From Couchioplanes azureus (GTDB lineage Bacteria > Actinomycetota > Actinomycetes > Mycobacteriales > Micromonosporaceae): a DNA stretch of 64,000 bases. The notes beneath the pieces were generated by a model. The model did no database searches. It saw only the letters and a list, made by a program, of their open reading frames with translations, and had not been told where the DNA came from. Numbering within the stretch: the stretch's first letter is position 1; every line of letters starts with the position of its first letter. Location of the stretch: the NCBI RefSeq assembly GCF_014648355.1, contig NZ_BMQY01000002.1, forward strand, positions 124,001 through 188,000, in the 5' to 3' direction. This document shows, piece after piece, positions 15,383 through 24,286 of the stretch. The translations under genes and the position numbers were made by a program.

Positions 15383-15991
15383 GTGATCCGCATACTGCTC
15401 GCCGAACCCATGAACCTTCTCCGCGGCGCCCTCGCCGCCACCCTCTCGCAAGAACAGGACCTGGACGTGGTCGCCGACCTCGGGCGGCTCGACGAGGTGC
15501 TCCCGATGGCGCGCGTCGTGTCACCCGACGTCGCCGTGATCAACACCGATCTGCTCGCCGCCCCGGAGCCGGGCGTGGTCGATCGGATGCGCCTGGAGCT
15601 GCCGCACTGCGGGATCCTCCTGCTGGCCGGTGCCGACGCGCCCGCCCGGCTGAGCCGGACCCTGGACGCCGGGGTACGCGGCTTCGTCGACAAGCAGGCC
15701 GGGCCGCACGAGCTCGCGTACGGCATCCGGCGGGCGGCCCGCGGCGAGCGCGTGATGGACGCGCGCCTCGCGGTCGCCGTGCTGGCCGCGCCGCGCAACC
15801 CGTTGTCGGCGCGCGAGCGCGACGTGCTCGTCGTGGCCGCGTCCGGCGCACCCTCGCAGGAGATCGCCGCCAAGCTGCACCTGAGCACCGGGACGGTGCG
15901 CAACTACATCTCAGCGATCCTGCGCAAGACCGGCGCCCGCAACCGGCTGGAGGCGGTCCGCATCGCCCGGGAGGCCGGCTGGCTCGACTGA
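15383..15991 (+). CDS. ramR: atypical NarL/LuxR-type response regulator, ramR-like, receiver lacking phospho-acceptor Asp
   Basis: 202 residues, GTG with GGGAGG five bases upstream. The receiver (1-120) resembles DesR-type regulators but strand 3 reads PDVAVINTDL: Asn54 occupies the phospho-acceptor place, and the acidic pair is reduced to Glu8-Pro9 (ILLAEP). The LuxR HTH covers about 136-196 (LSARERDVLVVAASGAPSQE, HLSTGTVRNYISAILRKTGA). It converges on ramB and overlaps it by 81 bases, at the end of the lanthipeptide operon. RamR and AmfR regulate such operons in Streptomyces and work independently of classical phosphorylation. I infer the same role here; binding sites near ramC need testing. 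Confidence 0.82.
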   Translation: MIRILLAEPMNLLRGALAATLSQEQDLDVVADLGRLDEVLPMARVVSPDVAVINTDLLAAPEPGVVDRMRLELPHCGILLLAGADAPARLSRTLDAGVRGFVDKQAGPHELAYGIRRAARGERVMDARLAVAVLAAPRNPLSARERDVLVVAASGAPSQEIAAKLHLSTGTVRNYISAILRKTGARNRLEAVRIAREAGWLD

Positions 15992-17734
15992 GTGCCAACG
16001 GCCGGCCAGGTCGCGGTAGAGCGGTGACGTGCGGCGCAGCGAGCCGTCGGTGCCGAGCGTCGCGGACGAGCCGTCCAGCAGCAGGATCCGGGACGCCCGC
16101 CACGCCGAGCTGACCCGGTGGGCGACGACGACCAGCGCGCCGGGCCGGGCGGCGAACGCCCGCTCGGCGCGGGCCTCACCGGCCGCGTCCAGGTGGCAGG
16201 TGGCCTCGTCGAGCAGGACCAGCCGCGCCGGCGACAGGTACGCGCGGACCAGGGCCACGAGCTGGCGTTCGCCCGCGGACAGCGCGTCCGGGGTGATGCG
16301 CGCGTCGTAGCCGCCCAGCCGCCGGACCACCGCGTCGAGACCGATCGCCTCGGCCGCCCGGTCGATGTCGGGCACGGCGGCGCCGGGACGCAGGTAGCGC
16401 AGGTTGTCGAGCAGCGTGCCGGTGAACACGTACGCCTCCTGCGGGATGAGCACGCGGTGGCGGGCGAGCGTGCGGACGTCCAGCCGGTCCGTGCGCACGC
16501 CGCCCAGGCGCACGTCGCCCTGCTGCGGTTGCAGCGTGCCCGCGAGCAGGCTCAGGAGGGTGGACTTGCCGATGCCGCTGGGCCCGATGATCGCCAGGTG
16601 GTCGCCGTCGCGGACGTCCAGGTCGAGGCCGGAGACGACGGGCTCGGCGCGCCGGCCGTAGGCGAAGGTGACGCCGCGCAGCAGCACGTCCGCGCCGCCG
16701 GGCCGCGCCGCCGGGCCGCCGCGCGCGGAGGCGCCACACGCGGCCGGCGCGGAGTCGCCGCACGCGGCCAGTGCGGAGGTGCCGCGCGCGGCCGGCGCGG
16801 AGTCGCCGCCGTGCAGGATGCGGTCGAGGGTCACCGCCAGGCGTACGCCACCGCCGCCCAGGCCGCCGACGAGCATGGTGAGCGCCGGCTGCACCCCGTG
16901 CAGCAGGTAGGTGAGCGAGCCCAGGACCGCCCCGGCCGTCAGCCCGTGGTGCACCAGCCACGGCGCCGCCGTCAGGACGACCGCCAGCGGCAGCCAGCCG
17001 CCCGCGGCCAGGCTGATCCCGCGCGCCGCGGTCGTCCGGGCCACCGCCCGTTCCGCGGCGGCTTGCGCGTCGACCGGGACGGAGATCTCGGCGGCCATCC
17101 GGCGCCCGGCTCCACAGGCGGCGATGTCGCGCAGCCCGGCGAACGCGCGGCCGGCGTGCTCGGCCAGATCCTCGCCGGCGCGCACGTACGCGCGCTGCCG
17201 GGCGGCCGCCCGCGGCACCGTCGCGGCGAACATGGCGAGCCCCGCCAGCAGCGGCGCCGCCACGAGCAGCGCCACCACCGGCGCCAGGGACGCCAGTCCG
17301 AGCAGCGCCCCCGCGACGGCGAACAGGAACCCGCGCATGGTCACGATCAGGCCGGCGAACGTGTCCCGGACGATCTCCACCTGGTGGGTGAGCCGGGCCA
17401 CCGCCGACCGGTCCGCTCCCCCACCGGCGCTCGCCGCCCGGCGCAGCGTGCCGGCGACCACGTGCGCCACCAGCTCGTCGCGCAGCGGTTCGGCCAGGTC
17501 GGCGAGGCAGCGGAAGGTGCGCCGGGTGCCGGCCGCGCCCAGCAGGACCGCCGCGGCGAGCAGGCCCAGCCAGCCGAGACCGGCGGCCGGGTCGCCGGCC
17601 AGGAAGCCGCGGTCGACCGCGCGGGCGACGGCCTGTCCGGACAGGACGGCGGGCAGCGCCTCGAGCCCGGACCAGCCGGCCAGCCGGACCAGCACGCGGG
17701 GACGGCGGCGCAGGAACGCCAGCAGGAACCTCAT
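15911..17734 (-). CDS. ramB: ABC exporter, transmembrane-ATPase half (ramB-like)
   Basis: 607 residues, type-1 exporter half: six helices in about 1-310, then the ATPase. Walker A GPSGIGKST is near 382, Q-loop in LIPQEAYVFTG, signature LSAGERQ near 481, Walker B LVLLDEATCHLD with catalytic Glu near 502, and His in VVAHRVSS. It carries the consensus catalytic Glu of the RamA/RamB pair. Between membrane domain and ATPase is a degenerate 10-residue repeat (variants of GDSAPAACG). The start overlaps ramA as ATGA. The 3' end runs 81 bases into the convergent regulator gene, adding a 27-residue tail after GRWH. Role by analogy: export of the lanthipeptide. Confidence 0.88.
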   Translation of the reverse strand: MRFLLAFLRRRPRVLVRLAGWSGLEALPAVLSGQAVARAVDRGFLAGDPAAGLGWLGLLAAAVLLGAAGTRRTFRCLADLAEPLRDELVAHVVAGTLRRAASAGGGADRSAVARLTHQVEIVRDTFAGLIVTMRGFLFAVAGALLGLASLAPVVALLVAAPLLAGLAMFAATVPRAAARQRAYVRAGEDLAEHAGRAFAGLRDIAACGAGRRMAAEISVPVDAQAAAERAVARTTAARGISLAAGGWLPLAVVLTAAPWLVHHGLTAGAVLGSLTYLLHGVQPALTMLVGGLGGGGVRLAVTLDRILHGGDSAPAARGTSALAACGDSAPAACGASARGGPAARPGGADVLLRGVTFAYGRRAEPVVSGLDLDVRDGDHLAIIGPSGIGKSTLLSLLAGTLQPQQGDVRLGGVRTDRLDVRTLARHRVLIPQEAYVFTGTLLDNLRYLRPGAAVPDIDRAAEAIGLDAVVRRLGGYDARITPDALSAGERQLVALVRAYLSPARLVLLDEATCHLDAAGEARAERAFAARPGALVVVAHRVSSAWRASRILLLDGSSATLGTDGSLRRTSPLYRDLAGRWHSVEPAGLPGDADRLQPVAGAGLAQDR

Positions 17735-19431
17735 CGCCCGGCCGCCGGGAAGAGCGCCCGGTATTCCGGGTCGGGCCGCAGCACGTCGTGCGGCGCGCAG
17801 GCGCGGACCCGCCCGCGGTCCAGCCAGACGACGAGATCGGCCCGCGCGGCGGTGCCGGCCCGGTGGGTGACCACCAGCCGGGTACGGCGGTCGCGGGTGC
17901 CCAGGAGCGCCTGGTACACCTCGTGCTCCGTGACCGTGTCCAGGCTGGAGGTGGCGTCGTCGAGCACGAGCAGCCGCTCGGCACGCAGCGCCCGGGCCAC
18001 GCCGAGCCGTTGCGCCTCGCCGCCGGACAACGGGGCCTCGCGCAGCGGGGTGTCGTAGCCGGCGGGCAGCCGCTCGACCACCGTGTCGACCCGCGCGGCG
18101 CGGGCGTCGGCGCGCACCAGCTCCGGGGTGCGGCGGTCCGGGCCGAGCCCGATGGCGGCACCGACCGTGTCGCCGACGAGCACCGGACGGGCGAAGGCGT
18201 ACCCGACGGCCCGGCGCAGGGCCTCCGGGCGCAGCCGGCGCAGCGGCACGCCGTCGAGCCGCACGTCGCCCTCGTCCGGGTCGAGCAGCCGGCCGGCCAC
18301 GGCGGCCAGGGTCGACTTGCCGGCGCCGGAGCGGCCGACCACCGCCACGGTCGCGCCGCCCGGCACCTCGAGGTCGATCCCGTCGAGCACGGGCCGGTCG
18401 CCGCCCGCGGGGTGGCGCACGGTCACCGCGCGCAGCTCCAGCCGGCCGTCCCCCGGAGGCAGACCGGCGTCGCCGTGGCGGTGCGCGGGCGCGGCGAGGA
18501 CCTCGGCGATCCGCCCGCTGCCCGCCCGGGCCCGGGCGATGCGTCCCAGCACGCCGACCACGCCGCCCAGGCCCGCGCCGAGGGTGGCGTACTGCAGGGC
18601 GGCCAGCAGCGCACCCGGCGTGAGCCGGCCGGCGGTGAGCGCCAGGCCGGCCACGGCGACGACGGCGAGCTGCGCCAGCGGGGCCACCACCGCGCCGCGC
18701 GCCGCGGCCGTCCCCAGCATGTCCCAGGTGCGGCCGCCGTGCCGGCCCAGGTCCGGCAGGGGCCGCAGGACCCGCGCGATCTCCCGCTCCACGGTGCCGG
18801 CCGCGCCGATGGTCCGGGCGCCGGCGAGCGCCTCCGTCAGCCGGGCCGCGATGTCGCTCTGGGTGCGCTGGTAGCGGGTGGTCGCCTCGGCCGCGTCGGT
18901 GACGTACGTCCGCATCAGCGCGACGAGCACCGCCAGCCCGCCCACGAACGTCGCGCCGAGCCACGGGTCGATCAGGGCGAGGGCGACCAGGCTGCCCAGT
19001 GGCGGGACGACGGCGGCGCCGGCGAGGACCACGGCCGCCGCGGCGCCTCCCGCCTCGGGGACCTGGCCGGCGAGCCGGCTGACGAGGTCGCCGGGCGGGA
19101 ACCGGCGCGCCGCCCGGGGATCGAGCGCGAGGACGTGACCGGCGAGCGTGTGCCGCAGCCGGGCGGTGGCCCGCGCACCGCTCATCCCGGCGGCGAGGTC
19201 GGTGGAGATCTCGGCGGCGGCGATCAGGGCCACGAGTCCGACGGCGACGGCCAGCCAGCGTCCCGGGCGGGCGTCCGGTGCCAGCACCGCGTCGACGGCG
19301 GCGCCCAGCGCGGCCGGCAGGAGCAGATCCGCGACGGCGGCCGTCAGGGCCGCCACCGCCAGCCCGGCCGCCCACGGGCCGCCGTGCCGGACCGAGCGGA
19401 CGAGCAGCCGATCGCCCTCCACGACGGACAT
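17731..19431 (-). CDS. ramA: ABC exporter, transmembrane-ATPase half with degenerate catalytic site (ramA-like)
   Basis: 566 residues. The ATG at 19431 has AGGAGG four bases before it; the frame extends nine codons upstream but without a ribosome site. Six membrane helices are followed by an ATPase with Walker A GRSGAGKST near 365 and signature LSGGEAQRLG near 466. Walker B reads LLVLDDATSSLD, with Asp where exporters have the catalytic Glu, and the Q-loop Gln is missing (GYAFARPVLVGD). Together with ramB this makes an asymmetric heterodimer, the RamAB arrangement. It follows the precursor gene across a strong hairpin. Confidence 0.88.
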   Translation of the reverse strand: MSVVEGDRLLVRSVRHGGPWAAGLAVAALTAAVADLLLPAALGAAVDAVLAPDARPGRWLAVAVGLVALIAAAEISTDLAAGMSGARATARLRHTLAGHVLALDPRAARRFPPGDLVSRLAGQVPEAGGAAAAVVLAGAAVVPPLGSLVALALIDPWLGATFVGGLAVLVALMRTYVTDAAEATTRYQRTQSDIAARLTEALAGARTIGAAGTVEREIARVLRPLPDLGRHGGRTWDMLGTAAARGAVVAPLAQLAVVAVAGLALTAGRLTPGALLAALQYATLGAGLGGVVGVLGRIARARAGSGRIAEVLAAPAHRHGDAGLPPGDGRLELRAVTVRHPAGGDRPVLDGIDLEVPGGATVAVVGRSGAGKSTLAAVAGRLLDPDEGDVRLDGVPLRRLRPEALRRAVGYAFARPVLVGDTVGAAIGLGPDRRTPELVRADARAARVDTVVERLPAGYDTPLREAPLSGGEAQRLGVARALRAERLLVLDDATSSLDTVTEHEVYQALLGTRDRRTRLVVTHRAGTAARADLVVWLDRGRVRACAPHDVLRPDPEYRALFPAAGR

Positions 19432-19464
19432 GGCACCTCCTGACCGCTGGGTCTGCACGGTGGG

Positions 19465-19501
19465 GCCCCGAACCGGAGCAAGGGGCAGTCCGGTTCGGGG
19501 C
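19465..19501 (-). terminator. intercistronic hairpin between precursor gene and transporter genes
   Basis: Perfect 12-bp arms GCCCCGAACCGG (19465-19476) and CCGGTTCGGGGC (19490-19501) with a 13-base loop, 26 bases past the ramS stop and 33 bases before the ramA ATG. Such stems after lanthipeptide precursor genes act as partial terminators or 3' stabilisers, giving more precursor than transporter mRNA. Confidence 0.75.
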
Positions 19502-19527
19502 GGTTCCGGTGTACCGGCTGGTGCTCG

Positions 19528-19647
19528 TCAGTCGCAGGTCGTCACACTGAGCGAGCTGTCGCCGCAGAGCAGCAGGCTGGCCCGGCTTCCACCGCCGTAC
19601 GCGGCCTCGGGGGTCAGTTCCATCCCCTGCAGGTCCATAAGTGCCAT
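19528..19647 (-). CDS. ramS: SapB/AmfS-like class III lanthipeptide precursor
   Basis: 39 residues. The ATG has AAAGGGG seven bases upstream, inside the end of ramC, and starts four bases after the ramC stop. The leader begins MALMDLQGMELTPEAAYG; the LxDLQxME box is the class III leader recognition motif (RamS: LFDLQSME). The C-terminal core is GSRASLLLCGDSSLS followed by VTTCD. SapB, as I recall it, is TGSRASLLLCGDSSLS plus ITTCN: 18 of 21 positions match counting the preceding Gly. Both Ser-x2-Ser-x3-Cys units (SRASLLLC and SSLSVTTC) are intact, so two rings are expected after dehydration and cyclisation by RamC. Predicted role: amphiphilic surface peptide for erecting aerial or sporangial structures. 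Confidence 0.93.
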   Translation of the reverse strand: MALMDLQGMELTPEAAYGGGSRASLLLCGDSSLSVTTCD

Positions 19648-19651
19648 CTCG

Positions 19652-22282
19652 TTACCCCTTTCCGTGCTCGGTGTGGATCTTCTTTCCCTCCGGCCGGAGG
19701 GAAGCTCGGGAAGTGCCCGCTGCCGGGCTCAGGAACGGCAGGTCGACGGGCTCGTGGTGCAGTGCGGCGCCGAGGGCGAGCAGGACGCCGGCGGATCCCG
19801 TCGCCAGGTCCATCGACAGCCGCAGCAACTGCTCGCCGGGAAATGCCAGCCCGCCCCGGAAGGGCACCGCGTGCCAGGCGAGGTCGCGGATCTGGGCCCG
19901 TACCGGCTCGCCGTCGCGGTCGCGCCCGGCCAGGTACCGGATGATGCCGGCCCGGCCCGCGAAGAGCCCGGACTGCGCGTAGAACGGCGACCGCGCGGCG
20001 AGGCCGATCGCGGCGCTCGCCCCGGCGAGGCGGTCGTCGTCGCGGTGGGCCAGCACCTGGTCGGCGACCGTGCCGATGCCGACGCTGCCCCGGGCCAGGT
20101 ACGGCATGGTCCGCCAGCCCTCGTCGACCTCCAGCGCGCCGTCGTCGCGCACCACGCAGCGGTCGAGGTCCCGGTGGATCGCCGTGGCGGCGCGGTCCAG
20201 CAGCGTGCCGTCGCCGGTCCGCTCGTACATCCGCAGGAACAGCAGCGCGGGACCGGTCCAGCCGTGGGTGAGCCCCGCGGGGCGCAGGCGGACGCCGCTG
20301 GTCGCGGGCGTGTCACCCGCGCCGCGGAGCCGTTCGGACAGCAGGTCGGTCGCTCTCCGGGCCCCGGCGTCGAGCGCGGCCTCACCGGTGGCGTCCGCCA
20401 GGTACGCCAGGTTGAGCCCGATGCCGGCGAGCCCGCTCATCAGGTCGGAGCCGAGCTCGTCCCACCTCTCGCGCAGGCAGCGGTCGACGATGTCGAGCGC
20501 CTCCTGCCGCCGGCCCAGCCGGTGCAGGGCGTACGCGACGCCGTGCAGCCCGTCGTAGAAGCCCAGCCGCGCTCCGGCGGGCGGGTCGACCGCCCGCCGG
20601 ACGAGCCAGTCCTCGAAGCCGGGGTGCCGGCCGGCGCCCGTGAGGTGCAGGCTGTACAGCACGCCGGCGGCGCCGTAGGCGAGGTTGAGCCCTCCCGAGC
20701 GGAACTGCTCGACGTCGCCCGGGAAGAGCCGGTCGTCGCGCTGCGGCGTGGCACTGCCCACGATGGCCTCGGCGAGTTGCCCGCGCAGCACCGGCCAGCC
20801 GGCGGTGCCGGACGGGAACTGCCGCCACCCGCCGCGCGGCCGGGTCACCGACCCCGACGACGCCGACGACGCCGACGCGATCGTGGCGACGGCGTCGGCC
20901 AGGTAGTCCTCGGGTACGCCGAACCGCTCCCGGATCACCTCGGCGAAGTGGTGGGCCTTGCCGGGTGCCAGCCGCAGCATGGCGGTGAGCGGCAGGAACA
21001 GCGCCAGTTTCAGGCAGGCCAGCGCGTACCGGTCGACGTCGCGCCCGCCGACCTCGCGGGGCGCCGCGAAGCCCTGGTTGCGCAGCCCGGGCCGGCGGTA
21101 GCCGTCGACCGGGCCGGCGACCTCGAAGTCGACCAGCGCGATCGTGTCACCCTCCGGGGTGCCGGTACGCACCAGCACGTTGAACAGGTGCAGGTCGCCG
21201 TAGACGAGGCCACGCTCGTGGATCGCCTCGACGGTCCGCTCCACCTGCCGGTGGATGTCCGTCGCCCAGGCGGCGTACGCGCGGTACCGCTGCGGGTCGG
21301 CCGTCGGGTCGACGAGCGGATAGCGCTCGACCAGCAGCTTGTTCAGGGGCGTGCCGTCGATGTACTCCAGCGCCAGGAACTCGTGCTCGCCCAGCCGGAA
21401 CCGGTCGTGCACCCGCGGCACGGCGAGGCCGGCGAGCCGCTGGAGCGCGGCGTGCTCCTGGTCGAGGCGCCACACCGCGTCCGCGCCGGTGGCGTCGAGC
21501 CCCGCGTGCGGCCGGGCCTCCTTGAGCACCACCCGGTCGCCGGAGCGGGTGTCGGTGGCGGCGTACAGGCCGCCGCCGTTGGAGAAGTGGATCACCCGGT
21601 CGATGCGGTACGGCAGATCGGCGGTGGTCGTGGCATTGCGGGCGGCGAGATCCGGGGCCAGGAACGCCGGCAGCGAGACCCACCCGGGCATCCGGAAGAC
21701 CGGGTCGCGCCGGTCCGGGACGAGCCGGCCGGACGGGTCCGCGATGGCGGGCTCGACGACGCCGTCCACGACGCAGTAGCGGGCGGCGAAGCCTCCGTAG
21801 CGCACGTGCAGCGGGCCGGAGCCGAGGCGCAGGTCGCTCAGGACGTACGGGCCGGGCTCGCCGCGCAGCAGGTCGCCGAGCTCCTTGCACACCAGCTCGA
21901 GTTCGGCCTCGTCGCGGGGGTACACCGTGACGAACTTGCCGCTCGTGCCGCGCCGGGCGTATTTGGCGTTGCGCAGCAGCAGGGCGGCCGGGCCGTGCAC
22001 GAACTTGAACGCCACGGCGTGGGCCACGCAGTAGCCGAACACCACGTCCAGTACCCGGTCGGCGTTGTGCAGGCAGGCCGACACGTGGATCTTCCAGCCC
22101 TGGTCCGGGAGGCTGCCGTCGGTCGGCGCGTACACGAGCCAGTCGTCGAGGGCCTCGCGCCGCCAGCCGGGCGGGACCGCTCGCCGGGCCGCGGCGAAGA
22201 GCCCCGCAACCGGCCGCCGGGTGCTCAGGGAGTCGTAGAAGAGCGGATCCACCACACAGAACCGCTCGTACTGCCTGTCCAC
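19652..22282 (-). CDS. ramC: class III lanthipeptide synthetase LanKC (ramC-like)
   Basis: 876 residues from the GTG at 22282, which has GGAGAGGAG about six bases before it and gives the RamC-type start VDRQYERFCVVDPLFYDS; the frame's earlier GTG at 22318 adds an unconserved leader. Three domains: N-terminal lyase-like region (1-210); Ser/Thr-kinase-like dehydratase region (about 230-500), with the ATP lysine in RVVLKEARPH near 251, catalytic loop VYGDLHLFNVLV near 360 and DFE in IALVDFEVAG near 380; C-terminal LanC-like cyclase (about 540-850), with GLHGVAYALHRLG, LAGIGLNLAYLAD and GLTHGWTGPALLF but no zinc-ligating Cys, as in class III. First gene of ramCSAB. Confidence 0.94.
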   Translation of the reverse strand: MDRQYERFCVVDPLFYDSLSTRRPVAGLFAAARRAVPPGWRREALDDWLVYAPTDGSLPDQGWKIHVSACLHNADRVLDVVFGYCVAHAVAFKFVHGPAALLLRNAKYARRGTSGKFVTVYPRDEAELELVCKELGDLLRGEPGPYVLSDLRLGSGPLHVRYGGFAARYCVVDGVVEPAIADPSGRLVPDRRDPVFRMPGWVSLPAFLAPDLAARNATTTADLPYRIDRVIHFSNGGGLYAATDTRSGDRVVLKEARPHAGLDATGADAVWRLDQEHAALQRLAGLAVPRVHDRFRLGEHEFLALEYIDGTPLNKLLVERYPLVDPTADPQRYRAYAAWATDIHRQVERTVEAIHERGLVYGDLHLFNVLVRTGTPEGDTIALVDFEVAGPVDGYRRPGLRNQGFAAPREVGGRDVDRYALACLKLALFLPLTAMLRLAPGKAHHFAEVIRERFGVPEDYLADAVATIASASSASSGSVTRPRGGWRQFPSGTAGWPVLRGQLAEAIVGSATPQRDDRLFPGDVEQFRSGGLNLAYGAAGVLYSLHLTGAGRHPGFEDWLVRRAVDPPAGARLGFYDGLHGVAYALHRLGRRQEALDIVDRCLRERWDELGSDLMSGLAGIGLNLAYLADATGEAALDAGARRATDLLSERLRGAGDTPATSGVRLRPAGLTHGWTGPALLFLRMYERTGDGTLLDRAATAIHRDLDRCVVRDDGALEVDEGWRTMPYLARGSVGIGTVADQVLAHRDDDRLAGASAAIGLAARSPFYAQSGLFAGRAGIIRYLAGRDRDGEPVRAQIRDLAWHAVPFRGGLAFPGEQLLRLSMDLATGSAGVLLALGAALHHEPVDLPFLSPAAGTSRASLRPEGKKIHTEHGKG

Positions 22283-22350
22283 GGCCCGCTCCTCTCCCGC
22301 TTCCTGGTTGCTTGCCACCAGTCTTCGGGCAGGAGGGGTCGCGCCCCAGT

Positions 22351-22377
22351 GCGCACCGTCACCGGGTGACGGTGCGC
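22351..22377. promoter_or_regulatory. 27-bp perfect odd palindrome upstream of ramC
   Basis: GCGCACCGTCACC (22351-22363), one central G, then GGTGACGGTGCGC (22365-22377). It lies 69-95 bases before the ramC GTG and 65 bases past the end of the diguanylate cyclase gene. It could be an operator of the ram operon or the terminator of the upstream gene; the one-base centre favours a protein site over a hairpin. Confidence 0.5.
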
Positions 22378-22441
22378 GGAGTCAGAACGGATTGCTGACC
22401 GCGGTCATGTTTGCACCGCGGCGCGGCAGGCCGGAGCGGTC

Positions 22442-24286
22442 CTACGCGGCGACCGTGACGGGCTCGTCCGCGGCGACGGGGGCCGGGTCGAGGGTGCCGA
22501 TCACGCCGTTGGCCTCGAGCACGAGGAACTCGTCCACGAGGTGCGGGGGGAACTGCACGCCGCGGCACCGGCGCAGCTCGGCGCGGGCCTCGCCGGCCGG
22601 CATCGCCGGCTTGCCCGGGCCGGGCGCGCGCATGACGGCCCACGCGGCGCAGAGCCCGGCGATCGCGCTGGCCGGGACCGGTACCGCGTCGGCACGGCGG
22701 CGTGCGGCCTCGCCCACCACCGCGGCCCAGTCCTGGATGGAACGGTCGAGCTCGGGCAGCTCCCCGGGGTGGGCCTCGGGCGCGGTGGCCGGTGCGAGGT
22801 CCGCCAGGCCGGTGGTCACCACCACCCGGTCGCGGCCGCCGCGCTTGGCCGCGTAGAGGGCGGTGTCGGCGGCGTTGACCAGCTCGTCCGGCGTCTGCGG
22901 CGGCTCGGCGGTGGTGCCCCCGATCGACACGGTGACCGCGACCGGAGTGTGGCCGTCCACCAGGACGGGGACCGCGTTGATCTGGGTGCGGATCCGTTCG
23001 GCCACGGCCGTCAGGTGCTGCGGGTCCGTGGCGGTGGTCAGTACGGCGAACTCCTCGCCGCCGAAGCGGGCCACGACGTCGCCGGCGCGGCAGGTGGCGC
23101 GCAGCCGCCGGGCGACCTCGACCAGGACCTGGTCGCCGGCGGGGTGGCCGTACGTGTCGTTGATCCGCTTGAAGTGGTCGACGTCGAGCAGCAGGAGGGC
23201 GAGCGGACCGCCGGACCGGGCCGCGCGCTCGCTCTCCACCCGCAGCTGCTCGGACAGGAAGCGGCGGGTGTAGAGGCCGGTCAGGGCATCGGTGATGGCC
23301 AGCCGGCGCTGCGCCGCGATGAGGCCCGCCATGCGCACCAGCACGAGCAGGAAGAGCACCGCCGAGGCGCCGACGACGACCAGGTCGGACCGGGCCGCAC
23401 CCCGCAGGTTCTGCACCACCAGCACGGCCGGGGCCATCGCGGTGGCGAAGCCGAGCAGCACCACGCGGTACGGGGTGGCGCCCGAGCGGGGCTCCGCCGG
23501 GTCGGCCAGGTGCCGCATCGACGGGTGCAGCCCGGCCGCGCCGAGCGCGACGTAGCCGAGCAGCCACAGCGCATCGGTCCACCCGCCGTCGGCGAACGAG
23601 CCGGTCAGGGTGAGCAGGCCGTAGGCGGTGTCGGCGAACAGGTTCAGGGCGAGGAAGGCCAGCAGCAGGTGGTAGGCCGGCTGGCGGACGCCGCCGCTGA
23701 GCATCAGCCGGATGGCCACGGTGAGCACGCACAGGTCCATCACCGGGTAGGCGGTGGCCGCGACCCGGTCCACCGTGTCGATGTCCGGGGCGGTGACCGT
23801 CGGGTGGATGAGGAACACCCACCACAGCACCGCGGCGCCCACGGCGAGGATCGTGGTGTCGACCAGCGCGGCCGTGTTGCGCTGCGGGGACCGCCGCCGG
23901 GTCAGCTGCACCAGGGCGGCGGCGACGAAGAAGTACTGGGCGAGGTAGAGCACGTTCGCCGCCACCGGGTAGCTGGCGTCGTGCTGGGAGGCGATGTAGT
24001 AGGTGACGTCGCCCGAGGTGTACATCACCTGGCCGGCGACGAACAGCCACCAGATCGAGCCGGGCCGCGGCCGGTGCCGCCGGATGCCCACCGCGAGCGC
24101 GACCGCGGTCGACCCGCTGACCAGGCAGTAGAGCACCGTCTGGAGCACGGCCCCGGCGTCGGTGGCCGGCACCGTGTAGTAGCCGGCGATGGGCAGCAGC
24201 GCCGCCGCCGACCAGGCGATCCAGGCCCGCGACCACGCGGACGTCGTACGCGCGGCGGCCTGTCCCGGGCGATCCACAGATGTCAC
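22442..24286 (-). CDS. membrane-bound GGDEF diguanylate cyclase
   Basis: 614 residues, GTG start. About nine or ten hydrophobic helices fill residues 20-335 without a recognised sensor motif. The GGDEF domain (about 335-500) is intact: TDALTGLYTRR, LDVDHFKRINDTYGH, and the active site GGEEF at about 409-413. An RxxD inhibitory site (RAGD) sits five residues before it, so product inhibition by c-di-GMP is likely. A tail of about 110 residues ends AELRRCRGVQFPPHLVDEFL, which resembles the last helices of HD-GYP domains without the HD or GYP motifs. c-di-GMP blocks sporulation through BldD in Streptomyces, so a link to the adjacent ram locus is conceivable but unproven. Confidence 0.93.
   Translation of the reverse strand: MTSVDRPGQAAARTTSAWSRAWIAWSAAALLPIAGYYTVPATDAGAVLQTVLYCLVSGSTAVALAVGIRRHRPRPGSIWWLFVAGQVMYTSGDVTYYIASQHDASYPVAANVLYLAQYFFVAAALVQLTRRRSPQRNTAALVDTTILAVGAAVLWWVFLIHPTVTAPDIDTVDRVAATAYPVMDLCVLTVAIRLMLSGGVRQPAYHLLLAFLALNLFADTAYGLLTLTGSFADGGWTDALWLLGYVALGAAGLHPSMRHLADPAEPRSGATPYRVVLLGFATAMAPAVLVVQNLRGAARSDLVVVGASAVLFLLVLVRMAGLIAAQRRLAITDALTGLYTRRFLSEQLRVESERAARSGGPLALLLLDVDHFKRINDTYGHPAGDQVLVEVARRLRATCRAGDVVARFGGEEFAVLTTATDPQHLTAVAERIRTQINAVPVLVDGHTPVAVTVSIGGTTAEPPQTPDELVNAADTALYAAKRGGRDRVVVTTGLADLAPATAPEAHPGELPELDRSIQDWAAVVGEAARRRADAVPVPASAIAGLCAAWAVMRAPGPGKPAMPAGEARAELRRCRGVQFPPHLVDEFLVLEANGVIGTLDPAPVAADEPVTVAA

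Follow-up and report, generated by a model that had tools for sequence, protein, structure and literature searches.

An intact SapB-type lanthipeptide locus in Couchioplanes azureus with a regulator lineage and promoter element in common with a secreted-protein cassette of Actinoplanes

Genes and features of the ram locus

The DNA analysed here, referred to as the window, is a stretch of 64,000 nucleotides from the genome of Couchioplanes azureus. A ramC-ramS-ramA-ramB operon spans positions 22282 to 15911 of its minus strand; a convergent ramR-like regulator gene faces it on the plus strand at 15383-15991. An earlier sequence-only reading had described a complete ramCSAB/R locus in ram gene order. 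All five genes lie where they had been placed, and their families were confirmed by Pfam and NCBIfam profiles; the order was also right, with the refinement that the operon occupies the minus strand and the regulator alone the plus strand. The features are as follows.

19528..19647, minus strand: ramS, 39-aa SapB-type precursor with core GGSRASLLLCGDSSLSVTTCD; Pfam RamS 1.1e-15, NF033212 2.1e-16; 18-residue identity with 43 other cores
19652..22282, minus strand: ramC, class III LanKC of 876 aa with a GTG start; NF038151 1063 bits; RamC_N, kinase and LanC-like domains
17731..19431, minus strand: ramA-like ABC exporter half; Pfam ABC_tran and ABC_membrane; DD after Walker B, where DE is usual
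15911..17734, minus strand: ramB-like ABC exporter half; Pfam ABC_tran; catalytic DE; 110 of 111 conserved columns kept
15383..15991, plus strand: ramR-like NarL/LuxR regulator; Pfam GerE 6.7e-16; Asn54 at the phospho-acceptor position
22347..22407, minus strand: composite promoter element, candidate RamR operator, TGAC-N4-GTCA ... TGAC-N7-ACTG, upstream of ramC
22351..22377, no strand assigned: perfect 13-bp inverted repeat with a 1-nt spacer within the promoter element; perfect in the window only, imperfect in relatives

Signs of decay were absent from the locus, and the gene set is complete. The LanKC score lies well above the cut-off of 575 of the curated NCBIfam profile NF038151, and the alignment indicated that the enzyme keeps 198 of the 201 columns conserved at >=95% in 99 relatives; K254, E276, the GDLH motif (D363, H365), N368 and the DFE motif (385-387) were all retained. 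Further in-frame starts are available upstream of the GTG codon. The ramA-like half kept 108 of 110 conserved columns, and its DD after Walker B is common, occurring in 73 of the 88 rows compared. A whole-genome search found neither a second LanKC nor a second SapB-type precursor in the organism's own genome. Synteny with a convergent ramR was found in nearly all complete related loci.

The locus agrees with S. coelicolor ramCSAB/ramR and with S. griseus amf in gene content, gene order, convergent regulator, precursor leader and core, both S-x2-S-x3-C units and the promoter half-element TGAC-N7-ACTG. The S. coelicolor genes specify SapB, a small surface-active peptide that enables aerial growth of Streptomyces. 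Unlike most Streptomyces clusters, which have a TTA codon (PMC4255298), the cluster in the window has none. The SapB loci of Micromonospora, Plantactinospora and other Actinoplanes encode synthetases 56-86% identical to that of the window and the same core, and many of them carry the TGAC-N4-GTCA dyad. Many also have two tandem RamR-like regulators and some have two or three precursors, whereas the window has one of each. In many of the Micromonosporaceae SapB loci (L112-L131 and named ram loci) the two RamR-like regulators belong to two separate lineages, and in L113, L114, L115, L123 and L124 the two or three tandem precursors have identical or almost identical cores.

Two further arrangements were observed at the edges of the locus. 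The ramB and ramR genes overlap tail to tail by 81 bp (15911-15991), and alignments suggest an overlap also in L032, L035, L036 and L041. Directly upstream of ramC lies a GGDEF diguanylate cyclase gene (22442-24286, minus strand) that is kept in the nearest relative, G031 (77%), but was not found adjoining the ram locus in A. nipponensis or G026.

Conservation of the core and distribution of SapB loci

The precursor translated from 19528-19647 on the minus strand is MALMDLQGMELTPEAAYGGGSRASLLLCGDSSLSVTTCD. It scored 58.2 bits against Pfam RamS (PF19402; E 1.1e-15, cut-off 24.3) and 59.8 bits against NCBIfam SapB/AmfS (NF033212; E 2.1e-16, cut-off 25). Both curated family cut-offs were thus exceeded in the comparison with RamS and AmfS that the sequence-only reading had proposed, indicating that the precursor is not a chance open reading frame. 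The ramS ATG is preceded by a Shine-Dalgarno-like AAAGGGG at a distance of 8 nt and by the synthetase stop codon at 4 nt. Both S-x2-S-x3-C ring units are intact in the core (SRASLLLCGDSSLSVTTC), as had been claimed. The three differences from the SapB core that the reading had counted proved correct against the Streptomyces/Kitasatospora core TGSRASLLLCGDSSLSITTCN (loci L063, L065 and L069): T1G, I17V and N21D. Valine is also the commonest residue at position 17 in Streptomyces cores. The calculated mass of the core minus four H2O is 1968.90 Da, if it is cut as in SapB.

To survey the core more widely, 80 named loci were fetched with their synthetase and 20 more were taken from the family, which yielded 69 SapB-like cores. 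The stretch of 18 residues that begins with the first ring serine and ends with the last cysteine was identical in 44 of the 69, the window included, and was encoded by 35 different DNA sequences. Compared with its three nearest relatives, the 21-codon core of the window differed by 5, 9 and 5 synonymous changes and by a single nonsynonymous change in every case (the last residue being N or D); against the same relatives, 7-16% of nonsynonymous sites in ramC differed. Because an identical 18-residue peptide is specified by 35 DNA sequences, with an excess of synonymous change relative to the relatives, these results support strong purifying selection on the core peptide, as the earlier reading had suggested from the window's sequence. 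Cores in Streptomyces, Micromonospora, Plantactinospora and other Actinoplanes are just as invariant.

The near identity of the core to that of Streptomyces would be compatible with a recent horizontal transfer of the cluster from that genus. The synthetase contradicts such an origin: the LanKC of the window is 72-86% identical to those of the nearest Actinoplanes (72% to Amorphoplanes nipponensis, the nearest named, and 86% to G031, the nearest overall) but only about 50% identical to those of Streptomyces. In the LanKC tree most Streptomyces enzymes form a clade of their own (support 100), and the window lies inside the Micromonosporaceae clade. Recent transfer was rejected on this tree position and appears very improbable. 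The occurrence of a SapB core outside Streptomyces, which had been regarded as remarkable, is not new, as such loci are on record for Micromonospora among others (PMC5765111, PMC9011353). SapB-like precursors were reported from Micromonospora, Verrucosispora and Nocardiopsis (PMC9011353), and more than 4,000 family members are listed by NCBI (PMC13380574). The SapB cassette itself is therefore ordinary in kind.

It had further been proposed that the peptide serves the development of sporangia or spore surfaces in a sporangium-forming, motile genus. The assignment of the organism to such a genus was supported: sequence identity across the locus and precursors in common place it in Actinoplanes sensu lato, and flagellin was found in 68 of 68 genus genomes, its own included. 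Purifying selection on the core and the reputation of this flagellate genus for sporangia both favor a developmental role of this kind. When related genomes were searched for the locus, however, the core was present in only 14 of the 68, 13 of which had a typical LanKC, and the other 54 lacked it; any LanKC match was found in 31. Neither a LanKC nor a SapB core was found in G059, presumed to be A. missouriensis 431T, a strain that makes sporangia but no aerial mycelium (PMC3569393). Since A. missouriensis forms sporangia and zoospores while its presumed genome is without SapB, sporangium formation does not generally require the peptide. SapB clusters also occur in about half of Micromonospora type strains, a genus that bears single spores and in which none form aerial hyphae (PMC5765111). 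A need for SapB in sporangium or spore-surface development of this organism thus seems improbable.

The SapB core and chaplins showed no co-occurrence in the genus (chaplins in 10 of 14 genomes with the core versus 41 of 54 without; Fisher p 0.74). Pfam ChpA-C matches were present in 51 of the 68 genomes, and the organism's own genome (G000) contains a 431-codon open frame that encodes five consecutive chaplin domains (C1:1440710-1441516, L132) and a 95-codon chaplin frame (C4:347365-347481, L133).

The regulator and the promoter element

The regulator of the window belongs to a different lineage from the Streptomyces RamRs, being 38-46% identical to most of those compared, and differs from them also at its phospho-acceptor site. 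The acceptor aspartate is important in AmfR and RamR of Streptomyces. At this position, site 54 at the end of beta-3, where a phosphorylation-controlled response regulator carries the acceptor aspartate, the regulator of the window has Asn; D was found in 73 of 86 rows and E in 7 of 86. With Asn54 in place of Asp, switching by phosphorylation at site 54 is unlikely, judging from the residue itself. This fits BldM and WhiI, developmental regulators of the same type that are apparently phosphorylation-independent (PMC4125116). The gene is nevertheless constrained, with a dN/dS of 0.24-0.34.

The nearest lineage to this regulator was that of Actinoplanes regulators located beside a gene for a secreted protein, an arrangement designated the cassette. 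The lineage was present in 39 of 68 genus genomes at 60-100% identity, with the next best match at 51%, and in only four of the 39 genomes does it sit with ramCSAB: the window's own, G031, G026 and A. nipponensis (G038). In regulator trees the four SapB-locus regulators and 14 (later 21) cassette regulators formed one clade (support 100/100 and 100/99). Among the 25 regulators of this clade, site 54 was N in 18, G in 2 and D in 5. Loss of the acceptor aspartate was considered as a strict character of the clade and was rejected, as D was retained in five of the 21 cassette regulators.

Alignment of the regions preceding ramC in the four nearest loci revealed conservation in two blocks. One is the dyad TGAC-N4-GTCA; the other, TGAC-N7-ACTG, follows 46 bp further on. 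The second block was found in 58 of 97 ramC upstream regions, compared to an expectation of 0.006 per 300 bp, almost always 68-99 bp before the ramC start codon, and is common to Streptomyces and Actinoplanes ram loci; many ram loci of the Micromonosporaceae have the dyad. In the window, TGAC-N7-ACTG sits within the perfect 13-bp inverted repeat. The whole composite element is a candidate RamR operator; no published footprint for comparison with it was found in the literature. The BldM operator (TCACcCgnncGgGTGA, PMC4125116) was rejected as the identity of the element on account of a spacing mismatch.

Across the genus, a search for the composite element recovered the ramC promoter of all window-clade genomes but one (three of four), the exception having a single base difference. 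The search also matched a site in each of 14 further Actinoplanes genomes, 13 of which lack a SapB core, and in all 14 this element of about 60 bp precedes the secreted-protein gene. The few remaining matches resemble chance. The cassette of the presumed A. missouriensis genome carries a shortened form of the element, and a search for a looser form in further cassettes (L152-L157) gave no convincing match. The regulator and element of the window are thus common to a cassette that is not a lanthipeptide cluster, unlike those of Streptomyces ram and amf. As far as could be found in the literature, the sharing of a regulator and putative operator between a SapB locus and a secreted-protein cassette is apparently undescribed.

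The secreted-protein cassette and the outputs of the regulator

The Actinoplanes cassette, present in 35 of 68 genomes, combines a regulator 60-69% identical to that of the window with a secreted hydrophobic two-cysteine protein of about 181 aa, where the window encodes a lanthipeptide operon; the same promoter element accompanies it in 14 genomes. In these 14 the adjoining regulator is 63-68% identical to the window's, and the protein (181-196 aa) carries a signal sequence and two cysteines, its mature part being hydrophobic (GRAVY 0.55-0.85). It matched no Pfam or NCBIfam family and has no sequence kinship to ram genes. In 35 of the 39 genomes with the regulator lineage the secreted-protein gene lies on the same contig as the regulator, within about 1 kb, and these 35 are exactly the genomes, of 68, with an orthologue of the protein (62-100%). 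The 35/35 linkage was derived from coordinates in two match lists, and 21 of the loci were examined directly; among these 21, regulator and gene were convergent in 11 and in tandem in 10. G059 carries the cassette, with the regulator gene at C1:3524336-3524938 and the secreted-protein gene at C1:3523636-3524172.

No remnant of the secreted-protein gene was found in the window. A distant paralogue of the protein (48%) is encoded elsewhere in the organism's own genome (G000 C5:607147-607713, L150), on another contig than the only regulator of the window lineage in that genome.

The two payloads were nearly mutually exclusive. Among the 68 genomes, one had both the SapB core and the cassette, 13 the core only, 34 the cassette only and 20 neither (Fisher p 0.0002, uncorrected for kinship); the exclusion may reflect shared ancestry. 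The sole genome with both payloads is G021, and its SapB locus has two regulators of its own that belong to other lineages. There (C122:52364-57587, L145/L117) the cassette and the SapB locus, of a different lineage, are about 3 kb apart.

Within the regulator trees the cassette regulators formed a single subgroup (support 100/94 and 98/93), with the SapB-locus regulators at its base. The simplest history suggested by these trees is that a SapB-locus RamR persisted through a single replacement of its payload, in which the secreted protein took the place of ramCSAB. The reverse history, in which a cassette captured ramCSAB, is less favored, but a tree constrained to unite the four SapB-locus regulators was not rejected (p-AU 0.093).

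The locus could instead be a standard SapB cluster with a regulator that is simply a divergent RamR, the secreted-protein gene beside related regulators being a chance neighbor without functional connection. The lack of kinship of the secreted protein to any ram gene or to any family, and the variable gene order (11 convergent, 10 tandem), are consistent with chance. Linkage within about 1 kb in 35 of 35 genomes across the genus is not, nor is the element of about 60 bp that the promoters of either payload have in common, and regulator and gene stay together in tandem and convergent arrangements alike. We consider this explanation rather unlikely. Since the regulator lineage adjoins the secreted protein in most Actinoplanes, we read the window's genes as an intact class III lanthipeptide locus of SapB type that forms one of the two alternative outputs of a switch for surface molecules common to the genus, a reading to which we assign a probability of about three in four.

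Under this two-output reading, the NarL-type regulator (15383-15991) would bind the composite element before ramC and turn on ramCSAB. The LanKC would bind the helical MALMDLQ leader of RamS, phosphorylate and eliminate up to four core serines, and close the two rings. The ABC pair would then export the peptide, the leader would be removed by a protease encoded elsewhere, and the amphipathic product would coat the air-facing surface of hyphae or spores. The regulator and its putative operator would not be private to SapB, as the same lineage probably serves the secreted hydrophobic protein in most Actinoplanes. From the shared lineage and element we infer that one regulator and its operator serve either of two surface-active payloads; the functional equivalence of the payloads, like regulator binding, ring formation and the surfactant role, is predicted. 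More specifically, a single regulator and operator might drive the SapB operon or, in most regulator-bearing species, probably including A. missouriensis, the hydrophobic secreted protein, which would replace SapB as the surface-active developmental molecule. We propose this last form tentatively, at somewhat less than even odds.

The function of SapB in Micromonospora, where about half of the type strains carry the cluster and none form aerial hyphae, is a question that the common regulator and candidate operator make testable. If the same switch drives the secreted protein, SapB and that protein could be tested as interchangeable surface coats in the tractable A. missouriensis. If true, this would also provide a function for a family of secreted proteins that lacks a Pfam or NCBIfam entry.
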